Below are positions 4,594-47,061 of a stretch of DNA of 64,000 bases, one piece after another. The translations under genes and the position numbers were made by a program. Within the stretch, counting starts at the first letter, position 1; every line of letters starts with the position of its first letter. Origin of the DNA: Beijerinckiaceae bacterium (lineage in GTDB: Bacteria > Pseudomonadota > Alphaproteobacteria > Rhizobiales > Beijerinckiaceae); the NCBI GenBank assembly GCA_947452455.1, contig CANGBX010000004.1, positions 62,001-126,000 on the forward strand, read 5' to 3'. The notes beneath the pieces are model-generated. The model was not told the DNA's origin, searched no databases, and saw only the letters and a program-made list of their open reading frames with translations.

Positions 4594-5706
4594 CTACTTC
4601 TTTGCCTCAGGCAAAGTTTCCAGCTCTGCTTCATAGACCGGCTCCATCCGGGTCTCGACGCCATGGCGCGACAAAGACTCGCGGAAAAGATTACGCACTT
4701 GCGTTGTCTCGTCCGCATAATCGATTTGATTGCCGCCCAAGCGTCGCGAAATCCACGACAAGGGCACGCCTTGCGAATTGCGGACAGACGAATGTTTGAA
4801 AGCAAGATAGCGGGCGGGGCTTGCACCAGCATTGAAATGCTGATGAAAAGTATTGTTCGGCGGCACAATCAAAGTGCCGGCCTGCCATGGATAATGCTTC
4901 GGCTCTTCACCATCCTGCCACATGAGCGAATAGCCTTCGCCCGACAAAACGATCACATGCGCGCCAGGTCCGTGTCTGTGGGCTTTCTTATATGTGCCAA
5001 CAGGGAATTGCGAAATATGGCTCGCCATAGAACCGCGCGCCATATTGAAGCGAATATGCCCGCCGCCTGCACCGCGCTCTTTGGCTGTGATCAACGGCAG
5101 ATTGACTGCATCAGGAACAAAATTGGTCCGCAGCAAAAAGCCGTCTTGCTCGCCTTGATTGGCAAAGTAATCCGGCTCGCCATTAAAGCGGCCTTTGAAA
5201 TCACGCGGCGTGTTGAAGATGAAGTCCACATCATCGAACATGTTGAGAAGCTGCGGACAGAAAGTAACGCCCACATAGCGCGCGGGCGCCTGCCCTGATC
5301 CATTGAAATGCTGATAGGTGCAGTTCAGCGGAATAGCGAAAATAGCACCCGCCTTCCACTCAAAGGTAATGCGCTGGCCTGAATCATTCCAAACGGTCGT
5401 TGATCCACGCCCATCAAGCACAAGCACCATTTCTTCATACAGCTGGCGCTGCGGGGCAAGTTTCCCGCCCTTGGGAATCTCGCAAACATAGCAATCATTC
5501 GAGAAACGCGAGGCTTCATGATTGATAAAGACGCCACGCCCGCCGCGCCGCGCCCAAGGCTTCAAATCAACCGTTTTGAGATCGGGTACATAATGGGCGC
5601 TGATAATATCAAGCCCCTCGCTTTGCACCCAGCGCTCATAAGGGGTTTCTTTTTCGGACGCGAATTTGCGCGCAAATTCCGCCGAGACCTGCGGCCCACT
5701 AGACAT
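4594..5706 (-). CDS. double-cupin domain protein, possible ring-cleaving or acid-modifying dioxygenase
   Basis: Cytoplasmic protein of about 370 residues with two cupin barrels. The start is the ATG at 5706, preceded by GGGGAGGA; a longer open frame upstream to 5967 lacks a comparable site. The first cupin lies around residues 80-165 (Y-E-E-M-V-L-V-L-D-G-R-G) and the second around 240-310 (K-x-H-R-H-G-P-G-A-H-V-I-V-L-S-G-E-G-Y, a clear metal-binding His set). The layout recalls gentisate dioxygenase-type or related bicupins acting on aromatic or keto acids, but I cannot name the reaction. It heads a two-gene unit with the Bug receptor at 3494 and is divergent from the amidohydrolase at 5877. 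Confidence 0.75.
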   Translation of the reverse strand: MSSGPQVSAEFARKFASEKETPYERWVQSEGLDIISAHYVPDLKTVDLKPWARRGGRGVFINHEASRFSNDCYVCEIPKGGKLAPQRQLYEEMVLVLDGRGSTTVWNDSGQRITFEWKAGAIFAIPLNCTYQHFNGSGQAPARYVGVTFCPQLLNMFDDVDFIFNTPRDFKGRFNGEPDYFANQGEQDGFLLRTNFVPDAVNLPLITAKERGAGGGHIRFNMARGSMASHISQFPVGTYKKAHRHGPGAHVIVLSGEGYSLMWQDGEEPKHYPWQAGTLIVPPNNTFHQHFNAGASPARYLAFKHSSVRNSQGVPLSWISRRLGGNQIDYADETTQVRNLFRESLSRHGVETRMEPVYEAELETLPEAKK

Positions 5707-9679: not shown

Positions 9680-10132
9680 TCACAACATACGGATGGCATG
9701 CGAAATCACACCCCAGACTTCGAATGTCGCGCCTTCGGGAATTGCAATGTCTGAAAATTTGGGGTTTTCGGCCTGCAAATAAATATGCCTGCCGCGCATA
9801 CGATAGCGCTTCACCGTGAATTCGCCATCCAGCAATGCCAAGATCATGGAGCCATTGGTGGGCGTGGCCGCACGATCGACCACGGCAATATCACCGGGAA
9901 ACAGCCCCGCCCCCGTCATGCTTTCGCCAGCAATCCGCACAGCAAACGTCGCCGCCGGATTCTTGATCAGCAGTTCGTTGAAATCGAGCGGCTGCTCCAA
10001 ATAATCATCAGCGGGCGAAGGAAAGCCAGCCGCAGCCGTGCAGCTGAAAAACGGCGTCTGGATGGGGCTTCGTGCCGGAGCCGCTGCGAGGGGAATAATC
10101 TCATAGCGCCGGATAGGGGGACTAACGGACAT
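9680..10132 (-). CDS. umuD: SOS mutagenesis protein UmuD (LexA-like autoprotease)
   Basis: LexA/S24-family protein of 150 residues that self-cleaves with RecA help and then joins UmuC. The cleavage site is A35-G36 in T-A-A-A-G-F-P-S-P; the nucleophile is Ser71 in A-G-E-S-M-T and the base is Lys108 in E-F-T-V-K-R-Y. All key residues are present. It is the first gene of the umuDC operon, 24 bases from the LexA box. Confidence 0.93.
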   Translation of the reverse strand: MSVSPPIRRYEIIPLAAAPARSPIQTPFFSCTAAAGFPSPADDYLEQPLDFNELLIKNPAATFAVRIAGESMTGAGLFPGDIAVVDRAATPTNGSMILALLDGEFTVKRYRMRGRHIYLQAENPKFSDIAIPEGATFEVWGVISHAIRML

Positions 10133-36589: not shown

Positions 36590-37492
36590 TCACACTGTCA
36601 GCACATCATAGAGAGCCGATGCGGCTGCCAGATCTTCTGGTCCCGCTCCAAGCGATTTGTAGAAAGTGATATCTTTGTCCGACCGGTCCGATGTTCCGGA
36701 CGCCACCAGATCGCAGAGCGGGCGCACTCGCGACCAATCAAATTTTTCTCCCAGCGCCAGAAATTCACCGGCCTCGCCCCGCGCCTGATCGATATCGTCT
36801 GTCACGATCAACGCACAGACATCAACCAATACAGGATCAATCTCCATGCGATTGGCTGCATTGGCCCCCACACCATTGATATGCGTGCCTGCGCGCACCG
36901 CTGCGCGGGGCACCACAAAATTCAAGGCATTGGTTGCTGTCACAACAATATCTGCCCGCACCACCGCCTTCTCCACGCTATCCGCCATGCGGATGTCGGC
37001 CCTGAGGTGCTTGCCCATCCGCTCACAAAACTCGGCAAGCTTGTCGCGCCGACGGGCATAGACGCTGACCTCTTCCATCAGGCCGAGCGCCTCCAATGCG
37101 AGCAATTGTGCAACGGCTTGGCGACCTGCGCCGATCAATCCGACGACGCGCGATTGCGGTCGCGCCATCAGACTTGCCGCCAGACCATTGGCGGCACCGG
37201 TGCGCAATTGTCCGAGCCAATCTGCCTCGCAAATCGCCAGAAGTCCCTGCGTGCGGTCATAAAGATGGATATGGAAATTGCCACTACCGTAAATTTTCAC
37301 TGCATAGCGGTCGCTCGCGGCATCACTTGCCGCCGTAATATTCATTGAATTGCCAAGCAGCTTTGCACGGCTGCGCGGCAGATTGACGACACTCCCTTGC
37401 GCCTGCGCTAGAAAAGCTTTGCGCAAAGCTGCAATCACCACATCAATGCCGAGCGCATCGCGTACACAGGCTTCGTCGATATAAATCGGCAT
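36590..37492 (-). CDS. ornithine cyclodeaminase/mu-crystallin family protein, paralogue
   Basis: Close paralogue of 7344-8249, 300 residues from ATG 37492, which gives the same M-P-x-Y-I-D-E-A start; a longer frame to 37558 has no support. The G-A-G-R-Q-A-V-A-Q-L-L-A-L nucleotide motif and L-R-T-G-A-A-N-G-L-A-A are shared almost unchanged. Two copies in separate catabolic regions suggest similar imine-reducing or amino-acid chemistry in both. Divergent from the Bug gene at 37727. Confidence 0.87.
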   Translation of the reverse strand: MPIYIDEACVRDALGIDVVIAALRKAFLAQAQGSVVNLPRSRAKLLGNSMNITAASDAASDRYAVKIYGSGNFHIHLYDRTQGLLAICEADWLGQLRTGAANGLAASLMARPQSRVVGLIGAGRQAVAQLLALEALGLMEEVSVYARRRDKLAEFCERMGKHLRADIRMADSVEKAVVRADIVVTATNALNFVVPRAAVRAGTHINGVGANAANRMEIDPVLVDVCALIVTDDIDQARGEAGEFLALGEKFDWSRVRPLCDLVASGTSDRSDKDITFYKSLGAGPEDLAAASALYDVLTV

Positions 37493-37633
37493 GTGCAAAC
37501 CTGTCCCCACCCCAGACGCCGGCAGCAGCGCCAATGTCCACAGCCATAAGGAAATCACCGGAAGCTGACAACCGCGGGCTCATGCGCACCCTTCGCAGAC
37601 GCAGCATATCGCGGGATGGAGATGCCCACGCCC

Positions 37634-37648
37634 ATGCAGATCCTGCAT
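37634..37648. promoter_or_regulatory. LysR-type box (ATGC-N7-GCAT) upstream of Bug gene
   Basis: ATGCAGATCCTGCAT is a perfect inverted repeat holding TGC-N7-GCA, the T-N11-A pattern of LysR sites. It lies 79 bases before the receptor start. The same box precedes the lysR gene (38791) and the hydrolase operon (39845). Confidence 0.7.
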
Positions 37649-37726
37649 GACCAGACCAAAGAAGGCATTGCTGAGGCCCCTACACCGCATGTTATCTATA
37701 ACGAAAAGTATTATGAGGAGCTGGTC

Positions 37727-38773
37727 ATGCGCGGAATTTTCAGGTTCTCCTGGACGATAACAGCCCTGCTGACCTGCTCGAGCCAAAATCTCAAAGCCGA
37801 GACGCCGGCCGAATTCTTCCGTGGCAAAACGATCAGCGTGATCGCCTCGACAGCGGCCGGCGGGCCTTATGATGTGGCGGCCCGTGTTCTCATCCAGTTC
37901 ATGCCCAAACATATTCCGGGCAACCCGACGCTTGTTGTGCGCAACATGCCAGGTGGCGGGCATATGCGCGCGACCAATTATCTCTACAGCCAGGCGCCAA
38001 AAGACGGGACGACTTTTGCAACACTCGTCAACAGCATTGCCGTTCATCAGGCCGTCGGCGGTGCCGGCGCCATGTATGATGCGCGCCGTTTCAGTTGGAT
38101 CGGCGCCATCGGCCAAAGCAATTTGACTGTCTATGTGACCGCACGTTCAGGCATCAAATCCATCGCCGACATGCAGAAGCGTGAAATCGTTCTGGGCGCA
38201 ACCGGTGTCGGTTCCGGCACATTCATCTATGCCAATGCGCTGAACCAGATCATCGGTACAAAATTCAAATTGATCGCCGGCTATCAGGGCTATCCTGAAA
38301 TCGACATGGCGATTGAACGCGGCGAAGTAGAAGGCATGGGCGGGCGTAGTTGGCGCGCGCTCTTGCAGGAACGCCCCGAATGGCTAGAGAAAAAAACCAT
38401 CACGATTCTCACACAAGTCGGCCCCAAACGTGAGAAAGGACTTGAAAACGTACCGCTGATGGAAGAGCTCGGCCAGAACGAGCAGCAAAAGCAAATCCTG
38501 CGCTTTATTTCCTCGCCGACCAATGCCGGCCGCCCCTATCTTGCACCGCCCGATGTGCCAGCAGACCGCCTGAAAGCTCTGCGTGCCGCCTTTGTCGCCA
38601 CGATGGAAGACAAGGATTATCTGGTTGACGCGGTGAAGCTCGGCCTCGACCTGCCCTACCGCACGGGCGCTGAACTCGAATCGGAAGTGATTGAAGTGCT
38701 CAACACGCCGCCGGGCCTGATCGAACAGGCCAAAGCGGTGATGGACCCGGGCGAGGCACCCGCCCCCAAATAA
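37727..38773 (+). CDS. Bug/TctC-like receptor
   Basis: Receptor of 348 residues. ATG 37727 follows GAGGAG; the open frame from 37616 would add 37 residues with no leader character and is rejected. The signal peptide ends near L-K-A before E-T-P, then F-F-R-G-K, A-A-G-G-P-Y-D-V-A-A-R, H-I-P-G-N-P, R-N-M-P-G-G-G-H, A-P-K-D-G-T. It probably forms a regulon with the following LysR gene and hydrolase operon through the box at 37634. Confidence 0.87.
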   Translation: MRGIFRFSWTITALLTCSSQNLKAETPAEFFRGKTISVIASTAAGGPYDVAARVLIQFMPKHIPGNPTLVVRNMPGGGHMRATNYLYSQAPKDGTTFATLVNSIAVHQAVGGAGAMYDARRFSWIGAIGQSNLTVYVTARSGIKSIADMQKREIVLGATGVGSGTFIYANALNQIIGTKFKLIAGYQGYPEIDMAIERGEVEGMGGRSWRALLQERPEWLEKKTITILTQVGPKREKGLENVPLMEELGQNEQQKQILRFISSPTNAGRPYLAPPDVPADRLKALRAAFVATMEDKDYLVDAVKLGLDLPYRTGAELESEVIEVLNTPPGLIEQAKAVMDPGEAPAPK

Positions 38774-38790
38774 CAGACCCTTTGCATCCC

Positions 38791-38807
38791 TATGCAGAGG
38801 ATGCATA
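38791..38807. promoter_or_regulatory. LysR-type box upstream of lysR
   Basis: TATGC-AGAGGAT-GCATA, a 17-base inverted repeat with T-N11-A spacing, lies 41 bases before the regulator start. It suggests autoregulation. An overlapping repeat TGCATCC...GGATGCA spans 38783-38805. Confidence 0.72.
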
Positions 38808-38848
38808 ATCTCTCTCAAAGTCGGCCAAGACCGGCGCAGGGGGGGGAT

Positions 38849-39823
38849 ATGGGAAGCATCCAACGTCTCAGCCGGCGTATACCCGGGCTGTTCCAATTGA
38901 TTGCCATTGCCGAACACCGCAGCATCAACAAGGCTGCGGAGGCACTGCATATTTCGCAATCCTCGCTGACACGTTCACTCGCCGCACTTGAAGCAGACAT
39001 CGGTGCGGCCTTGTTCGAACGCTCCGCACGCGGGGTACGCCTGACACAGGCCGGCGAGATTGCCCTCGTCCACGCTGTCGCCATCCAGAAGCAATTAAAG
39101 GGCCTGCAAGACACGTTGGAAACTTTGCTTGCGCTCAGCCCAAAACCATTGCGACTAGGCGCGACGCCGCTGGTTGAAAGCTTCTTCCTCGCACCCGCGT
39201 TGCACGCTTTGCAAAAGCGGTTTCCCAAACTCACAGTCCGCCTTGTCGAAGGCTCACGCCCCGATCTGATTACGCGACTGCGACTGCAGGAACTTGACCT
39301 TGTTCTCTCGACTTTTCCTTATCATATGCAGGAAGAAGATCTTCTTCTCAAGCCCTGCTTTGATCTGGATTTGCGGGTGGTCGTGCGCGCTGCGCATCCC
39401 CTGACTCGCCGCAGCAAACATGGTTTGCGTGATCTGGCGCAATATCGCTGGGTTTTGCCGCGCTCCGACACCGATCTCTATCGCCGTGTCAGTGATGATT
39501 TTTGTAGGGCAGGCGCTGTCTTTCCAGGCGCCTCTGTAGAAACATCCTCGCCCGGCGCCACACGCAATCTGGTTCTGGAATCGGATTATCTTGCCATTTT
39601 GCCGCTGCGCAGTGTGGAAGGCGATCTTGCCGCCGGCACGATGTGCGCATTAAGCGGAGACTGGAGTTTTCAACGTCGCACCGTCGGCTTTTTCCTTGCC
39701 TATGGCGAGATGAGCACCGAGATCCGCTATCTGCTGGATTTGCTTCTCGACAAGCCTGCACTCGCGATACCCAAATCAAATGCCGGACACATGAAACGCA
39801 TGGCCGAGGCCGGTTTTGCATAA
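38849..39823 (+). CDS. LysR-type transcriptional regulator
   Basis: LysR-family regulator of 324 residues. ATG 38849 is preceded by GGGGGGG; a frame from 38792 would add a meaningless tail. The winged helix-turn-helix is at about 14-72 (S-I-N-K-A-A-E-A-L-H-I-S-Q-S-S-L-T-R), followed by the periplasmic-binding-like effector domain. It sits between a Bug gene and the hydrolase-molybdenum hydroxylase-UbiD operon, each with an identical-spacing TGC-N7-GCA box, so it is their likely activator. The effector is probably the pathway substrate or an intermediate. Confidence 0.92.
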   Translation: MGSIQRLSRRIPGLFQLIAIAEHRSINKAAEALHISQSSLTRSLAALEADIGAALFERSARGVRLTQAGEIALVHAVAIQKQLKGLQDTLETLLALSPKPLRLGATPLVESFFLAPALHALQKRFPKLTVRLVEGSRPDLITRLRLQELDLVLSTFPYHMQEEDLLLKPCFDLDLRVVVRAAHPLTRRSKHGLRDLAQYRWVLPRSDTDLYRRVSDDFCRAGAVFPGASVETSSPGATRNLVLESDYLAILPLRSVEGDLAAGTMCALSGDWSFQRRTVGFFLAYGEMSTEIRYLLDLLLDKPALAIPKSNAGHMKRMAEAGFA

Positions 39824-39844
39824 CCGGCCTTCTGCGGACCGTCC

Positions 39845-39861
39845 TATGCTGAACATGCATA
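39845..39861. promoter_or_regulatory. LysR-type box upstream of the hydrolase operon
   Basis: TATGC-TGAACAT-GCATA, 40 bases before the hydrolase start, has the same arms and spacing as the box at 38791-38807 but a different centre. This supports selection on the arms, as expected for a protein-binding site. Confidence 0.72.
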
Positions 39862-39901
39862 AGAAGACAAGCGCGACCGGCACCCAAAAGGACTGACATA
39901 G

Positions 39902-40804
39902 ATGAGCGAGACAGCAATTGCCTTCCAATCAAATGGTGTGGAACTGATTGGCACAATCCGCGTGCCGGACGGACTGAAGGCAGGCGAAAAAAGACCGGCC
40001 TTCATTGTCATGCATGGCTTCGGCAGCACGAGTTCAGCAGGCAATGTTTTGGCGCCCTGCGCCATTCTGGAAAAACTCGGCTATGTGACACTGCGCTACG
40101 ACCAGCGCGGATGCGGGCAGAGCGGGGGCCCGCGCGGCCATCTCATCATGCAGGAACAAGTCGCCGATGCGCGCAATGCGCTGACCTTTCTCGCGCAGCA
40201 TGAATATGTTCAAGGCGACAAGATCGGTATGCTAGGCTCGAGTTTCGGGGCTGCCATTTCTGTTTACACTGCCGGTATTGATCAGCGCGTCGGCGCTGTT
40301 GTTTCAGCTTCAGGTTTCGGCCATGGCGCACGCAAATTCCGCGGGCAGCACAAAAGCGATGCCGAATGGGCGGCTTTCACCAAAATGCTCGCAGACGGCC
40401 GCGCCCACCGCGAAAAAACCGGCGAGCCGTTAATGGTGGACCGATATGCCATTGTGCCGATCCCGCAGGGCTTGCGCACCCATGTGCTGAAAGGCTCCAT
40501 CCTGACATTCACGGCCGATACGGCGCAGAGCATTCACGATTTCAATCCGGAAGATGTTATCGGACAGATTACGCCGCGACCTGTTCTGCTGATGCATTCC
40601 ACTTCGGATTCCGTAACGCCGGTCGAACAGGCGCTTGGTCTCTTCAAAAAATCGGAATCACCGACCGATCTGTTTCTCTTCGCCGAGACAGATCATTTCA
40701 TGTTCGCCGAACATAACCAGCGCGTGCATCGCGTGCTCGAAGACTGGCTTGCGGCCTGGTTCCCCGCACAGGGTAACCCGACGCAGAAAACGGGTGGGCA
40801 TTAA
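39902..40804 (+). CDS. alpha/beta hydrolase
   Basis: Alpha/beta-hydrolase fold enzyme of 300 residues, similar to dienelactone hydrolase / S15-type or acyl-esterase families. The nucleophile elbow is G112-S-S114-F-G116; the oxyanion segment M-H-G-F-G-S lies at about 37-42, and the D-x-R-G-C-G motif at 67-72. A late E-T-D-H provides the likely histidine. It is the first gene of a tight operon (the stop overlaps the next start, TAATG) and probably opens the pathway by splitting an ester, thioester, lactone or amide. Confidence 0.87.
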   Translation: MSETAIAFQSNGVELIGTIRVPDGLKAGEKRPAFIVMHGFGSTSSAGNVLAPCAILEKLGYVTLRYDQRGCGQSGGPRGHLIMQEQVADARNALTFLAQHEYVQGDKIGMLGSSFGAAISVYTAGIDQRVGAVVSASGFGHGARKFRGQHKSDAEWAAFTKMLADGRAHREKTGEPLMVDRYAIVPIPQGLRTHVLKGSILTFTADTAQSIHDFNPEDVIGQITPRPVLLMHSTSDSVTPVEQALGLFKKSESPTDLFLFAETDHFMFAEHNQRVHRVLEDWLAAWFPAQGNPTQKTGGH

Positions 40805-43143
40805 TGCAGCACGCCGGAAAAACCGGACATGCACGGCTGGAAGACGATCGCCTGTTGCGCGGACAGGGTCGCTTTGTCGATGATCTCGATGTGCCTGATC
40901 TTTTGCATGTTGTTTTTTTGCGCAGCGCCTATGCGCATGCACGGATCGGAAAAATCGACAAAAGCACGGCCGAAAAAATTGTCGGCGTGCATGCTGTTCT
41001 GACGCTGGCCGATCTGAAAGAGGTTCTGACCTGCGAGCGTCTGCCGGCAGCAACACCCGCCAGCGCCATCCACTTTCATGTCGATCCTTGTATCCTGGTA
41101 AAAGATGAAGCCTGTTATGTCGGCGAGCCGATTGCCATGGTGGTCGCGGATACGCGCGCCATTGCCGAAGATGCGGCAGCACTCATCGAAATCGATGCCG
41201 AAATTTTGCCAGCGGTCACTGAGATCCGCGCGGGTCTTTCGTCCGACAGTCCGCGCACGCGCCTCGACCAACCGGATAATTGCGTCGCCCGCTGGACCAT
41301 CGGCTATGGCGATTGCGAAAGTGCTTTTGCAAAAGCCGCGCATAAGATTTCAGCCTCTTTCGAATTGCACAAGGGGGGCGCCATTCCGATGGAAGGACGC
41401 GGGCTTTTGGCGCGACCCGATCCGCTTGACGGTGTTTTGACCGTCTGGGACAGCACGCAAATGCCCCACCGCGTGAAGCGTGTGCTGGTTACCACTTTGG
41501 GCCTCAATGAAAACCAGATCCGCGTGATCGCGCCTGATGTCGGTGGCGGCTTTGGCCCGAAAGGCCCCGTCTATGCGGAAGAAGTCGCCGTCAGTGCGGC
41601 AGCGCTGCTTTTGCAAAAGCCGCTGAAATGGATCGAAGACCGTTACGAGAATTTTATCTCGACCAATCAGGAACGCGATCAATATTGGGATGTCGAAGGC
41701 GCGTTCGATGCAGACGGCCGCTTGCTCGGTATTCGCGGCACGCTATTGCATGACCACGGCGCCTGCACGCCATCGGGCATCCAGCTGCCGCAGAATTCGA
41801 CGACCAATCTGATCGGCCCCTATATTCTGCCTACCTACAAACTCGACGTTTCGCTATGCCTAACCAATAAAACGCCGACCACATCGACGCGCGGCGCTGG
41901 TCGTCCGCAAGGCACTTTTGTCATGGAGCGCCTGCTCGACCGCATGGCAGCCAAGCTGGGCATCGGTCGCGATGAGATCCGCCGACGCAACCTGATCCCC
42001 GCCGATGCGCTTCCCTATGTCACGCAAGTGCTGACGCGCGACGGTCTGCCGATGACCTATGACAGCGGCGATTATCCCGAATGCCAGCGGCGCGCATTGG
42101 AGGCGGCCGGCTGGCATGATTTTCTGGCCCGCCAGAAAGCAGCGCGCGAAAAGGGCCGATGGATTGGCCTCGGTCTCTCCAATTATGTGGAAGGCACTGG
42201 GCGCGGCCCGTTCGAAACAGCCTCGCTGCGCATCGGGCCGTCGGGAAAAATTTTGGTCGCCAGCGGTGCAGCCTCGCAGGGGCAGGGCACATCAACCATG
42301 CTTGCGCATATTGCGGCAAAAGTTCTGGGCGTACGCCCCGAGGTCATTGACGTCACGTGCGGCGATACACATGCGATTGCCATGGGCCTTGGCGCCTATG
42401 CCAGCCGCCAAACTGTCACGGCGGGCAATGCCCTGCATGCGGCCTCGCTTGAAATTGCACAAAAGATCAAACAGACCGCTGCCCATCTTCTCGAAGTCTC
42501 TGCCGATGACCTCGAATTGCGGGACAGCTTTGTGCAGGTGAAAGGCGTTGCCTCCATGAAGAAGAGCTTTGGCGAGATTGCCAAAACCCTCAGCGGCAAT
42601 GCGGGCTTTGCTTTACCTGGCGGCATGAAGCCCGGGCTCTTTGCTGCCGTTGATTTCGAGCCGCCGGCCATTACCTACACCAACGGCACGCATCTGGCGG
42701 AAGTCGAAGTCGATATTCGCACCGGCCACATCAAAATTACACGCTATGTCATCGTTCATGATTGCGGCAATATGATCAATCCGCAGATTGTCGAAGGACA
42801 GGTGCTCGGCGGTGTCGTGCATGGCATCAGCGCCACACTTTTCGAATGGATTCGCCATGATGCGCAGGGACAGCCTCTCACTGTCAGTCTGGCAGATTAT
42901 CTTCTGCCGACCGCCCATGATGTGCCGCGTATAGAAATCCACCATATGGAATCGCCGACACCGCTCAATCCGCTCGGTGTCAAAGGTGCGGCCGAAAGCG
43001 GCACGATCGGTGCGCCGGCTGCCATTGTCTCGGCGATTGAAGATGCGCTCGCACCGTTGAAGATCGAAATCAGCCAATTGCCAGTCACACCGCAGAGATT
43101 GCAGAAGCTGATTCGCAAAGCACAGGCCGGAGGCTCGCCATGA
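40804..43143 (+). CDS. molybdenum hydroxylase large (molybdopterin-binding) subunit
   Basis: Xanthine-dehydrogenase-family catalytic subunit, 779 residues. G-G-G-F-G-P-K-G near 248-255 binds molybdopterin, R-G-A-G-R-P-Q-G near 362 is the aldehyde/xanthine-type loop, and the catalytic glutamate is Glu731 in K-G-A-A-E-S-G. The CO dehydrogenase active-site Cys loop (A-Y-R-C-S-F-R) is absent, so this is a hydroxylase of an aldehyde or N-heteroaromatic ring, not CO dehydrogenase. With the two genes that follow it forms an L-M-S enzyme in the cytoplasm. It needs a MCD or MPT cofactor made elsewhere. Confidence 0.93.
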   Translation: MQHAGKTGHARLEDDRLLRGQGRFVDDLDVPDLLHVVFLRSAYAHARIGKIDKSTAEKIVGVHAVLTLADLKEVLTCERLPAATPASAIHFHVDPCILVKDEACYVGEPIAMVVADTRAIAEDAAALIEIDAEILPAVTEIRAGLSSDSPRTRLDQPDNCVARWTIGYGDCESAFAKAAHKISASFELHKGGAIPMEGRGLLARPDPLDGVLTVWDSTQMPHRVKRVLVTTLGLNENQIRVIAPDVGGGFGPKGPVYAEEVAVSAAALLLQKPLKWIEDRYENFISTNQERDQYWDVEGAFDADGRLLGIRGTLLHDHGACTPSGIQLPQNSTTNLIGPYILPTYKLDVSLCLTNKTPTTSTRGAGRPQGTFVMERLLDRMAAKLGIGRDEIRRRNLIPADALPYVTQVLTRDGLPMTYDSGDYPECQRRALEAAGWHDFLARQKAAREKGRWIGLGLSNYVEGTGRGPFETASLRIGPSGKILVASGAASQGQGTSTMLAHIAAKVLGVRPEVIDVTCGDTHAIAMGLGAYASRQTVTAGNALHAASLEIAQKIKQTAAHLLEVSADDLELRDSFVQVKGVASMKKSFGEIAKTLSGNAGFALPGGMKPGLFAAVDFEPPAITYTNGTHLAEVEVDIRTGHIKITRYVIVHDCGNMINPQIVEGQVLGGVVHGISATLFEWIRHDAQGQPLTVSLADYLLPTAHDVPRIEIHHMESPTPLNPLGVKGAAESGTIGAPAAIVSAIEDALAPLKIEISQLPVTPQRLQKLIRKAQAGGSP

Positions 43144-43994
43144 AAGCCGCCGGCTTTGGCTATCACCGGCCCGAGACCATGGCCGAATTGCTGACGCTCC
43201 TTGCCGATCTTCCCGATGCACGCATCATAGCCGGCGGACAATCGTTGATGCCGATGATGAACTTCCGCGTCGCCATGCCACAACATCTCGTCGACATCGA
43301 AAAAATCGACGGACTCGACAGCATCAATCTGCGCGATGGAACTTTACAGATCGGCGCCATGGTGCGACAAGCCGATGCACTCGCCTCGCCTGTCATCAAG
43401 AAAAATTGTCCGGTACTGGCCGACGCAATTGCCTATATCGGTCACCAGCAGACCCGTAATCGCGGCACTGTCGGGGGCAGCCTGTGCCATCTCGATCCGG
43501 CTTCCGAAATTCCGCTCGTCTGCGCCCTGCTTGACGCGCAGCTCTATATTGCAAGCCGACGCGGGACGCGCATGATGAATTTCCGCGATTTTGCCGATGC
43601 GCCGCTGACGACATCGCTCGCAGAAGATGAAATTCTCACCCGTATTGACCTGCCTATTTGTGATCCCGACACGCGTCACGGCTTTGGCGAATATGCCCGC
43701 CGTTCGGGTGACTTTGCTGTTGTAGCCGTCGCGACGCATTTGCGCTTTGCTGGAGAAACCATCACAGAAGCGCGCATGGCTTTTGCGGGCCTTGGCGCCA
43801 TTCAGGCGCGCGCTGACAGGCTGGAAATGTTTGCAACGAGCCAGAAGCTGAGCCCTGCATTGATCGATAAATTGGCGCAAGAAGCCGCGCAAATGCCAGC
43901 AGAAAGTGATCTGCATCATGATGCAGATTACAAGCGGCATCTGGCAGCCTGTCTCCTGCGCGAGGTTCTGGAAAGGATTTTGCGCCATGGATGA
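43140..43994 (+). CDS. molybdenum hydroxylase FAD-binding (medium) subunit
   Basis: FAD subunit of 284 residues (CoxM-like). I-I-A-G-G-Q-S-L-M-P-M-M-N-F-R near 33-47 is the first FAD motif and the T-R-N-R-G-T-V-G-G-S-L-C-H-L-D-P second motif is near 105-120. It overlaps the large-subunit stop by four bases (ATGA) and the iron-sulfur gene by eight. Electrons pass from the Mo site through the iron-sulfur subunit to this flavin. Confidence 0.93.
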   Translation: MKAAGFGYHRPETMAELLTLLADLPDARIIAGGQSLMPMMNFRVAMPQHLVDIEKIDGLDSINLRDGTLQIGAMVRQADALASPVIKKNCPVLADAIAYIGHQQTRNRGTVGGSLCHLDPASEIPLVCALLDAQLYIASRRGTRMMNFRDFADAPLTTSLAEDEILTRIDLPICDPDTRHGFGEYARRSGDFAVVAVATHLRFAGETITEARMAFAGLGAIQARADRLEMFATSQKLSPALIDKLAQEAAQMPAESDLHHDADYKRHLAACLLREVLERILRHG

Positions 43995-44475
43995 GCGCAT
44001 CATCACAATCGAAGTGAACGGGAAACAGTACAGGCTGAAGGTGCCAGTTCGCGAAAATCTCGCCGATTTTCTGCGCCACCGCCTTCATCTCACCGGCACA
44101 CATACGGGCTGCGAACATGGCGTTTGCGGCTCCTGCACCATTTTGCTCGACAGCCGCTCGGTGCGCTCCTGCCTGATTCTTGCCGTGCAATGCGATGGCA
44201 GATCCGTGCGGACAGTCGAAAGCCTGGCAGATGCAGCCGGCAAACTCGACCCCTTGCAGGATGCTTTTTCGCGCCATCATGCTTTGCAATGCGGCTTCTG
44301 CACTCCGGGCGTATTGATGACGCTTGTCGAGTTGCGCGAAAACGCTGATCCCTCCGAGATCAACGAAGACATGATCCGCGAAAAGCTCTCAGGCAATCTG
44401 TGCCGCTGCACCGGCTATCAGGGCATGGTGGATGCTGCGCTTGAAACTCTCTCTCGGCCCGACAAACGGCTGTGA
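43987..44475 (+). CDS. molybdenum hydroxylase [2Fe-2S] (small) subunit
   Basis: Iron-sulfur subunit of 162 residues. Plant-type cluster cysteines Cys42, Cys47, Cys50 and Cys62, and the second cluster Cys102, Cys105, Cys139 and Cys141 (C-G-F-C and C-R-C-T-G), are all present. The start at 43987 sits inside the end of the FAD gene; the longer frame from 43906 overlaps it further and is not needed. Order L-M-S differs from the common M-S-L or S-M-L of CO dehydrogenase clusters. Confidence 0.93.
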   Translation: MDERIITIEVNGKQYRLKVPVRENLADFLRHRLHLTGTHTGCEHGVCGSCTILLDSRSVRSCLILAVQCDGRSVRTVESLADAAGKLDPLQDAFSRHHALQCGFCTPGVLMTLVELRENADPSEINEDMIREKLSGNLCRCTGYQGMVDAALETLSRPDKRL

Positions 44476-44488
44476 AAAGGACTCCGCA

Positions 44489-45958
44489 ATGACCGAACCG
44501 CATATTGCCTATCATGATTTACGCGAATGGCTGACCGCGACCGAGCGACTTGGCGAATTACGCCACGTGAAAGGCGCTTCCTGGCAAGAAGATATCGGCC
44601 TTGCGGCAGAAGCCGTGCTACGTGCGGAAGACGGACCCTGCGTTCTCTTTGACGAAGTTCCAGGCTGCCCGAAAGGCTTCCGTCTTCTGCTCAATATGTT
44701 CGCCGGGAAACGTCGCAATATGACGTTGGGTTTTCCTGACCATTTCAATAAGTGGGAATTAAGCGATGCCTATCGCCGCGCTTATTTGGAAAATCCGAAA
44801 AGCATTCCCCATGTCATGGTCGAAGACGGTCCGATCTTTGAAAACATCCTCACCGGCGATGCGGTGGATGTGACGAAATTTCCCGCGCCCGTCTGGCACG
44901 AGAAAGATGGTGGCCGCTATATCGGGACCGGCACCTACAGCATCACCCGTGATCCGGAAGAAGACTGGCTCAATGCGGGCGCCTATCGCGCACAAGTGCA
45001 TGACCGCAACACTGTTGGCATTGTCATGGCGCGCGGTCACCATGGTTTCCTACACCGCGAGAAGTATTGGAAGAAAGGCGAAGCCCTGCCGATTGTCATG
45101 GTGCTTGGCGGCGACCCGATCGCCTTTTTCTACGGCGGCATCGAAGCGCCTTACGGCACATTCGAACTGGATATGGTGGGCGGCATGCGCGGCAAACCAG
45201 TGCCCATGGTGCGCGGCAAAGTGACAGGCCTGCCCATCCCCGCCCATGCCGAAGTCGTGCTCGAAGGCTATGTCAACAAGGACCGAATGATGACCGAGGG
45301 GCCGTTCGGTGAATGGTCGGGCCATTATGCGGGCGGTGCGCGGCAAATGCCGGTTATCGACATCAAGGCCATTTATCACCGCAATGATCCGATTCTCCTC
45401 GGTGTGCCGCCGATGGGTGCGGGACCCGATGAAATGGCGCGCTATCGCGCGGTCATGCGCTCGGCAATGATCAAACAGAATATGACCAATGCCGGCGTGC
45501 CGGATGTGCGTCAGGTATGGTGTCACGAAGTCGGAGGCGCGCGCATGTTCCATGCGGTTGCGATCAAACAGCGCTATCCAGGTCATGCCGTGCAGGCGGC
45601 CCATATTGCAGCACAATGTGGCGCCTCCGCCTATGCCTCGAAATATATTGTCGTGGTCGATGACGATGTCGATGTCACCAATCTTGACAATGTCCTCTGG
45701 GCCATGCTGACACGCACAGATCCTGTTGAATCCATCCAGTTCATCCGCGGATCATGGGATTCTGGTGCCGACCCGGCTCTACCGCCGGACCGGCGCGCGG
45801 TGGGCGACATGACGCATTCAGTTGCACTTATCAATGCCTGCAAGCCCTATCACTGGATGGATAAATTCCCGCCGAGCAATGCGCCGAGCCATGAATTGAT
45901 GCGTCGTGCGCAGGAAAAATTCGGCTGGCTCCTGAAGGGCGAAACACCACCGGCTTGA
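44489..45958 (+). CDS. UbiD-family prenylated-FMN decarboxylase
   Basis: UbiD-type (de)carboxylase of 489 residues acting on aromatic, heteroaromatic or alpha,beta-unsaturated acids. Catalytic Arg167 in G-A-Y-R-A-Q and Glu270/Glu275 in E-G-P-F-G-E match the Arg-Glu-Glu set of ferulate decarboxylase. The ATG at 44489 follows AAAAGGA. No UbiX prenyltransferase is in the window, so the cofactor must come from elsewhere. Its place after the molybdenum hydroxylase suggests hydroxylation of a carboxylated ring followed by decarboxylation, or the reverse order. Confidence 0.92.
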   Translation: MTEPHIAYHDLREWLTATERLGELRHVKGASWQEDIGLAAEAVLRAEDGPCVLFDEVPGCPKGFRLLLNMFAGKRRNMTLGFPDHFNKWELSDAYRRAYLENPKSIPHVMVEDGPIFENILTGDAVDVTKFPAPVWHEKDGGRYIGTGTYSITRDPEEDWLNAGAYRAQVHDRNTVGIVMARGHHGFLHREKYWKKGEALPIVMVLGGDPIAFFYGGIEAPYGTFELDMVGGMRGKPVPMVRGKVTGLPIPAHAEVVLEGYVNKDRMMTEGPFGEWSGHYAGGARQMPVIDIKAIYHRNDPILLGVPPMGAGPDEMARYRAVMRSAMIKQNMTNAGVPDVRQVWCHEVGGARMFHAVAIKQRYPGHAVQAAHIAAQCGASAYASKYIVVVDDDVDVTNLDNVLWAMLTRTDPVESIQFIRGSWDSGADPALPPDRRAVGDMTHSVALINACKPYHWMDKFPPSNAPSHELMRRAQEKFGWLLKGETPPA

Positions 45959-45987
45959 AAACTGGCATCGACGAAAAGAGGGACATC

Positions 45988-47061
45988 ATGCGTCGCAGTC
46001 TTTCAATTCTTGGCGGGCTTTGCCTGTCTCTCGCACCGGCATTTGCGCAAACGCCTTTTTATGAAGGCAAAACGATTTCGATCATCGTCAATTACGGCGC
46101 GGGCGGCAATGTCGATACGGATGCGCGCATTATGATGCGCCATATTACCCGCCATATTCCGGGCCAACCGACCATTATCATCCAGAATATCCCAGGTGCA
46201 GGCGGCGCGCTCGGAATGAATATGTTGGGTCTCAATATCAATTCAAAAGCTGATGGCATGACCGGCGGCTTTTTTACTGTGAGCCCCGTAGAGCCTCTGG
46301 TCGATGCGCCGACGCTGAAAATCCGGCTTGAAAAAGCCTATGTGGCCATCGGCGGGTGGCGCGGCTGGACAATTGCCTATGCACGCAAGGATTCCCCGCC
46401 CGGCCTCGTCGTACCCGCCGACATCGGCAAGGCGACACGCATGTTTACCGGTGGCTATAGCAAAGCAGCCTCGCATGATACGCGGCTTCGTCTCGCACTC
46501 GAAGTGATGAACGTACCCTACAAACCCGTAACAGGCTTTCCGACGGCTGGTGACCTCAACAAGGCGTTTATCCAGAACGAGATCAATATGACAGCGAGCT
46601 CGCTGCCTGCTTATCGCACGCAGGTCATTCCCAATATTATTACGCCCGGCATCGGTATGCCACTCTGGTATTATGATGTCATCGGCGATGATGGAAAACC
46701 GTCGGGCAATCCTGCGCTGGATGCGCAAGGGATCGAAGCCTATAGCGTCGTCTATAAGAAGGCTTTCGGTAAAGAACCCTCCGGCGTGCGCTATGAGGCT
46801 TTGTTGCAGGTGAACAATATTGCGACAAAATTGCAGCGCGGGTTTTTCCTGCCGACCGGCTCTCCGCCGGAAGCCGTATCCGCTCTACGGCAAGGATTTG
46901 AAGCTTTGCGCAAAGATGCCGCTTATCTCGAAGAATATGAACGCATCAATCAGGAAAAGCCGGATATGGCATCGGCTGCAGAAGTCGAACGCGTGCTAGA
47001 TCTGATGGGCAAGGCGACACTGGAGATCAAGAAGCTTCTGATAGAGTCGATTGCCGAGTAA
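45988..47061 (+). CDS. Bug/TctC-like receptor (same subtype as 287)
   Basis: Receptor of 357 residues ending the LysR-linked operon. ATG 45988 follows an AGAGGGA site; signal peptide ends A-F-A before Q-T-P-F-Y. It shares with 287-1366 the rare G-A-G-G-N-V-D-T-D-A-R loop, the R-H-I-T-R-H-I-P-G block and S-K-A-A-S-H-D-T-R-L-R-L-A, so the two likely bind related compounds. Probably supplies the operon's substrate from the periplasm, but no TctAB partner is here. Confidence 0.87.
   Translation: MRRSLSILGGLCLSLAPAFAQTPFYEGKTISIIVNYGAGGNVDTDARIMMRHITRHIPGQPTIIIQNIPGAGGALGMNMLGLNINSKADGMTGGFFTVSPVEPLVDAPTLKIRLEKAYVAIGGWRGWTIAYARKDSPPGLVVPADIGKATRMFTGGYSKAASHDTRLRLALEVMNVPYKPVTGFPTAGDLNKAFIQNEINMTASSLPAYRTQVIPNIITPGIGMPLWYYDVIGDDGKPSGNPALDAQGIEAYSVVYKKAFGKEPSGVRYEALLQVNNIATKLQRGFFLPTGSPPEAVSALRQGFEALRKDAAYLEEYERINQEKPDMASAAEVERVLDLMGKATLEIKKLLIESIAE

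Follow-up and report, generated by a model that had tools for sequence, protein, structure and literature searches.

How is an uncharacterised operon that encodes a molybdenum hydroxylase and a UbiD-family decarboxylase controlled, and by which protein? In the window analysed here, a stretch of 64,000 nucleotides from a Beijerinckiaceae bacterium, this operon follows a lysR gene and a gene for a Bug/TctC-like receptor, and each of these three units is preceded by a palindromic box, ATGC-N7-GCAT (Table 1). The boxes tie the operon to one candidate regulator and provide exact candidate operator sequences, and these are a possible handle on the substrate of the operon. The regulatory mechanism itself is of an ordinary, well-known kind and the interest of the locus lies in the pathway, a gene set with a hydroxylase/UbiD core that is found again in related members of the genus. 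We consider it likely, on the sequence data presented below, that the three boxes are operators through which the LysR-type protein encoded at 38849-39823 controls its own gene, the Bug receptor gene and the operon.

Table 1. Features of the locus (coordinates of the window; strand "." for the palindromic boxes).
Feature	Coordinates	Strand	Sequence, match or remark
Ornithine cyclodeaminase/mu-crystallin-family (OCD-like) gene	36590-37492	-	Pfam OCD_Mu_crystall 134 bits; divergent from Bug
Box 1	37634-37648	.	ATGCAGATCCTGCAT; intergenic between OCD-like and Bug receptor genes
Bug/TctC-like periplasmic solute receptor, candidate target	37727-38773	+	Pfam TctC 24.6 bits, just under cut-off 27
Putative lysR promoter	38781-38809	+	TTTGCA-17-CATAAT; sigma-70-like consensus match
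Box 2	38791-38807	.	TATGCAGAGGATGCATA; upstream of lysR
LysR-type regulator, candidate binder	38849-39823	+	Pfam HTH_1 69.4 bits, LysR_substrate 112.8 bits
Box 3	39845-39861	.	TATGCTGAACATGCATA; upstream of the operon's first gene
Alpha/beta hydrolase, operon gene 1	39902-40804	+	Pfam Hydrolase_4 61.8 bits
Molybdopterin-binding large subunit, xanthine dehydrogenase/CO dehydrogenase-family hydroxylase	40804-43143	+	Pfam MoCoBD_1, MoCoBD_2
Hydroxylase FAD-binding subunit	43140-43994	+	Pfam FAD_binding_5
Hydroxylase [2Fe-2S] subunit	43987-44475	+	Pfam Fer2, Fer2_2; start by eye
UbiD-family decarboxylase	44489-45958	+	TIGR00148 247.2 bits (cut-off 244.85); Pfam UbiD 212.7 (cut-off 23.3)
Second Bug-like receptor, final operon gene	45988-47061	+	start by eye

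All three boxes lie where the initial annotation had placed them, and two of the three distances that it gave to the downstream start codons also hold: 41 bp for lysR (start 38849) and 40 bp for the operon (start 39902), both counted from the 17-base form TATGC-N7-GCATA (42 and 41 bp from the 15-base form). The third, 79 bp for box 1, has to be corrected to 78 bp (15-base form, start 37727). Read from its longest open frame, the Bug gene would begin at 37616 and take in box 1. We prefer 37727 because a stretch that by eye resembles a signal peptide begins there and because the equivalent box of a diverged relative, G014 (ATGCAGAACCTGCAT), has a matching gap of 78 bases, provided that, of two adjacent ATGs, the earlier one serves as the Bug start in that genome (the gap is 84 bp with the later one). 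The arms are the same in all three boxes, as had been reported. The central bases, described at the same time as differing from box to box, are less free: in every box this stretch opens with A or T, continues with G and closes with T, and the motif is therefore better written ATGCWG-N4-TGCAT. This long form is derived from these very sites and its presence in them is by construction. The T-N11-A pattern characteristic of LysR-type sites, also pointed out in the initial annotation, is found as TGC-N7-GCA in each of the three boxes here and in each of three in G014.

The genes between 39902 and 47061 all have the same orientation and either overlap or are closely spaced, so that they plausibly form a single transcript. 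The large subunit of the hydroxylase scores under the cut-offs of every NCBIfam model that it matches. Aerobic CO dehydrogenase was considered for 40804-44475 and rejected (CO_dehy_Mo_lg, 532.5 against a cut-off of 991.15; CODH_aero_grp5, 738.9 against 950), and the three subunits are assigned by sequence to a hydroxylase of the CO dehydrogenase superfamily. The closest solved chain to the UbiD protein is 7pda_A. Searches of the literature for papers joining UbiD, molybdenum hydroxylase and decarboxylase, or 7PDA and UbiD, found none. The receptor encoded by the last gene has no match in Pfam or NCBIfam and is called Bug-like by eye and from a 46% match to part of the Bug gene of G014. The operon is probably dedicated to the breakdown of a ring-shaped (hetero)aromatic acid, by import, hydroxylation and decarboxylation.

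The product of lysR passes both domain cut-offs for a LysR-type regulator (HTH_1, 26.6; LysR_substrate, 28). Its best NCBIfam match is TF_pcaQ with 149.5 bits, far under the cut-off of 303.8, and an identity as PcaQ was therefore rejected. According to the available text of PMC4834489, and similarly that of PMC8407307, regulators of this type recognise a T-N11-A dyad that usually lies near position -65 of the target and overlaps the regulator's own promoter. In the region 37480-39960 there is one sigma-70-like promoter match, ahead of lysR; shuffled sequences give 1.3 +/- 1.0, so that this promoter is to be taken as a consensus match only. Box 2 overlaps this -35/-10 match, extending across the larger part of the spacer and into the -10 element, of which it takes in the first four bases, and autorepression is the natural reading of such a position. 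Boxes 2 and 3 both seem to lie away from the usual -65 of a plausible transcription start, which counts against the proposal, and box 1 could fit it. Searching the same region gave no sigma-70-like match near box 3, which is too close to the start codon to sit at -65 of a promoter preceding the gene; repression, or an unusual mode of activation, is thus more likely there. The lysR gene is co-directional with the operon, in tandem, and not divergent from it, a further point against the proposal. Its adjacency, the box over its own putative promoter and the co-occurrence of gene and boxes make the LysR protein the likely binder. Box 1 could serve either the OCD-like gene or the Bug gene, and the former may be a further target. 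A stretch of the lysR leader at 38818-38836 (AAGTCGGCCAAGACCGGCG) is nearly unchanged in G014.

How far could such boxes arise by chance? The genome to which the window belongs (G000; 3,054,433 bases in 13 contigs) contains 85 copies of the short form ATGC-N7-GCAT. A triplet within 2.2 kb is consequently expected about 0.16 times somewhere in the genome, which makes clustering weak proof by itself; we rejected it as the main argument, and the 85 sites also led us to reject the short core as a means of finding the regulon across the genome. The initial annotation had itself named many random occurrences in the genome as a result that would count against its proposal, and the short form fails on that point, so that specificity has to come from the longer motif. 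A reversed control pattern gives 8 sites against these 85, although its different dinucleotides make it an unfair null. Nor is the short form enriched in the window, with 6 sites observed against 4.17 +/- 2.00 expected; the three further ones (9785, 19083 and 54831) are all inside open reading frames.

The three intergenic stretches that carry the boxes total 388 bp, in which 0.011 short-form sites are expected. Among 5376 palindromic patterns (256 four-base arms combined with gaps of 0-20), ATGC-N7-GCAT is the sole one that the three promoters of the window have in common, and when G014 was tested separately the same pattern was again the single one out of 5376. The 17-base form TATGC-N7-GCATA occurs three times in G000, as boxes 2 and 3 and inside a coding frame at 9784-9800; its reversed control pattern occurs twice. 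Genome counts of the long motif are 7 in G000, 10 in the close relative G038 and 11 in G014, with three at this locus in each. The four other sites of G000 are all inside reading frames and no further target is proposed from them. Judged by their intergenic placement, by the pattern control in both genomes and by their conservation in G014, the three boxes exceed what chance would be expected to produce and are very probably sites of protein binding.

Orthologs of the LysR protein appear to be rare in the genomes sampled, in samples that overlap and of which the large ones were scored with few candidates per genome: three of 51 genomes of the genus (E <= 1e-45) and two of 397 in a family sample (1e-60), the window's own genome included in both, two of 397 in an order sample (the own genome and G606; E <= 1e-45) and one of 385, the own genome, in a class sample (1e-55). 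Within the family of G606 the count is one of 11, G606 itself (1e-55). G038 is 99% identical and adds little independent evidence. A search of a contig collection gave one locus, that of G038 itself, on contig CAINNX010000155.1 of an uncultured Rhizobiales assembly.

The full footprint comes from one diverged genome, G014, whose LysR protein is 74% identical to that of the window. In its 17-kb locus (L035) ATGC-N7-GCAT is found three times and no more, always at an orthologous promoter, so that the comparison of orthologous loci that had been suggested at the outset recovers the boxes at all three promoters. The site at the operon promoter reads ATGCTGTTTTTGCAT, and the gaps to the start codons, counted from the 15-base form, are 46 bp for lysR and 44 bp for the operon. 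Between the two genomes all eight arm bases are kept at each of the three boxes, and of the seven central bases six are kept at box 1, five at box 2 and three at box 3. Identity outside the boxes is 0.64 at the Bug promoter (with long gaps), 0.79 at the lysR promoter and 0.51 at the operon promoter. Raised to the eighth power these values give 0.027, 0.15 and 0.0045 for boxes 1, 2 and 3; since the lysR promoter is so similar outside the box, the conservation of box 2 is weakly informative. The OCD-like gene is conserved as judged by a 66.7% blastn match together with a reading frame.

The gene content of the G014 locus is not the same throughout. In L035, ubiD follows directly after the gene of the hydroxylase large subunit (5472-5554), and no match to the genes for the FAD-binding and [2Fe-2S] subunits, located at 43140-44475 in the window, was found in that locus. 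Elsewhere in G014 the best matches to the FAD-binding subunit reach 41-43%, with one fragment of 77 residues at 51%. This absence may be a real loss or a fault of the assembly, which is 86% complete. The flank of the G014 cluster encodes a LigB-type dioxygenase and a member of the fumarylacetoacetate hydrolase family. Beside the cluster, a protein of 397 amino acids (L035 1667-2860) gave no sequence match in Pfam, NCBIfam or PDB; it is loosely reminiscent of M29-type/2,5-dihydroxypyridine-dioxygenase proteins.

UbiD relatives are more widespread than the regulator, with matches in 27 of 397 genomes (G000 and G038 included). As controls we used 12 loci from 11 genomes (L077-L088) with UbiD proteins about 71-78% identical, leaving out G000, G038 and matches of 55% or less. 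None of the 12 loci has a match to the LysR protein, and no ortholog was detected in their genomes at E <= 1e-45. The long form ATGCWG-N4-TGCAT is absent from all 12 (164,287 bp in all, several of the contigs being short). Ten of the loci have a match to the hydroxylase large subunit (the exceptions are L085 and L088; in L087 it is 35% identical). Eleven other genomes of the genus have a UbiD relative of about 71-78%, in most cases next to a molybdenum hydroxylase, but not this LysR protein. The short form occurs at six sites in four of the control loci (one each in L078, L085 and L086 and three in L087). That of L078 lies about 60-70 bp before UbiD in a locus devoid of the LysR gene and would count mildly against an exclusive pairing of box and LysR protein; it scores 2.5 bits on the matrix built from the six sites of G000 and G014, against 18.9-23.4 bits for the boxes themselves.

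A distant relative of the LysR protein, 52% identical, is found in G606, a member of another family. Divergently oriented to its gene are a dioxygenase-like frame, of LigB type as judged by eye, and a 56% relative of the operon's alpha/beta hydrolase (L064, 38-3267), an arrangement that suggests an old partnership of LysR and hydrolase. The upstream region of this lysR gene does not contain ATGC-N7-GCAT. The half-sites ATGCA/TGCAT occur 12 times in 12 kb, and four of them, at 1004-1097 of L064, make up the densest 100 bp; those at 1004 and 1034 are inside the longest lysR frame (38-1057) and those at 1062 and 1093 precede it. The best weight-matrix match in the 12 kb is at 1062 with 13.0 bits, a value exceeded by the best match in six of the 12 control loci, and the half-site cluster is thus suggestive only. 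The helix-turn-helix segment SQSSLTRSLAALE is identical in G000 and G014. Where these two read SQSSLTRS, G606 reads SQPALTRS, and the changed residues would fit an altered site in that genome.

Three other explanations have to be weighed against control by this LysR protein. One is that a common eight-base core fell three times into intergenic DNA and that the G014 sites were inherited without function. The abundance of the short form, with the triplet expectation that follows from it, and the 79% identity of the lysR promoters of the two genomes are what speaks for such an accident. We nevertheless hold it to be very improbable, given that one and the same pattern was singled out from 5376 in each of two genomes, that the arms survived at flanking identities for which this has the low probabilities given above (0.15 at box 2, far lower at boxes 1 and 3) and that so few sites are expected in 388 bp. 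It is also conceivable that the LysR protein binds the boxes and regulates lysR and Bug alone, the box of the operon being weak or vestigial. The lack of a sigma-70-like match near box 3 would agree with this, as would the score of its G014 copy, the lowest of the six sites (18.9 bits against 21-23 for the others), but all eight arm bases are kept there between flanks that are 51% identical, and we regard this restricted regulon as distinctly unlikely.

A near-perfect dyad can be bound by several classes of regulator. Another dimeric protein encoded elsewhere, of the MarR, GntR or TetR kind for example, might thus occupy the boxes and the LysR protein bind other sequences, and the closeness of boxes 2 and 3 to the start codons, common for repressor operators, would suit such a protein. 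Against it stand the position of box 2 over the putative promoter of lysR itself, the absence of the long form from 12 UbiD loci without a LysR ortholog and the clustering of half-sites around the start of the lysR relative of G606. T-N11-A within a 4-7-4 dyad is moreover a LysR-type form, as far as the available portion of PMC6628147 describes it. A regulator of another class seems to us unlikely, if somewhat less so than a vestigial operon box. The boxes are probably LysR-type operators, a real and conserved set that defines a candidate regulon. The proposal that one dimeric regulator governs lysR, the receptor and the operon 39902-47061 accordingly gains from the boxes kept in G014 and from the LysR-less loci that have no long form, and loses the genome-wide specificity once looked for in the short form.

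Under control by the LysR protein of 38849-39823, the ATGCWG-N4-TGCAT boxes would act as its high-affinity T-N11-A operators, each occupied by a dimer that is probably half of a tetramer. At box 2 the regulator would cover the spacer and a portion of the -10 element of lysR and repress its own gene. Box 3, at a similar distance from its start codon, would subject the catabolic operon to control in response to a pathway compound, and box 1, in the stretch from which the OCD-like and Bug genes diverge, would do the same for the receptor. A (hetero)aromatic acid would then be imported, hydroxylated by the molybdenum enzyme and relieved of its carboxyl group by the UbiD enzyme. A bolder version, which we put forward tentatively and think rather less probable than not, is that of a LysR subgroup with a code of its own, ATGCWG-N4-TGCAT, that has three full operators in a tandem cluster, with boxes on or beside the core promoter both of lysR and of the operon, and acts mainly as an inducer-released repressor of an undescribed (hetero)aromatic acid degradation.

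Our literature searches found no paper pairing LysR with ATGC-N7-GCAT or TGC-N7-GCA, and known systems resemble the locus in part. The PcaQ-type regulators provide the best NCBIfam match of the protein. The PcaQ site has a different sequence from the boxes found here. Closer in form are the sites of BenM and CatM, regulators of benzoate/muconate catabolism, which the available portion of PMC6628147 gives as ATAC-N7-GTAT: they share with the boxes the 4-7-4 dyad with T-N11-A and the vicinity of aromatic-catabolism genes. The arms here are ATGC/GCAT and not ATAC/GTAT, so that the boxes do not conform to the BenM/CatM consensus as given there. They also differ in having a central W and G, and a T beside the right arm, common to all three, in the closeness of boxes 2 and 3 to start codons and in the co-directional placement of lysR and operon. 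With the canonical LysR unit, as far as the available text of PMC4834489 outlines it, the locus shares the palindromic T-N11-A site and the autorepression that we infer for lysR. That canonical unit has a divergent regulator and target with a primary site near -65 and a secondary one near -35, whereas the present locus is a tandem arrangement with three full boxes.
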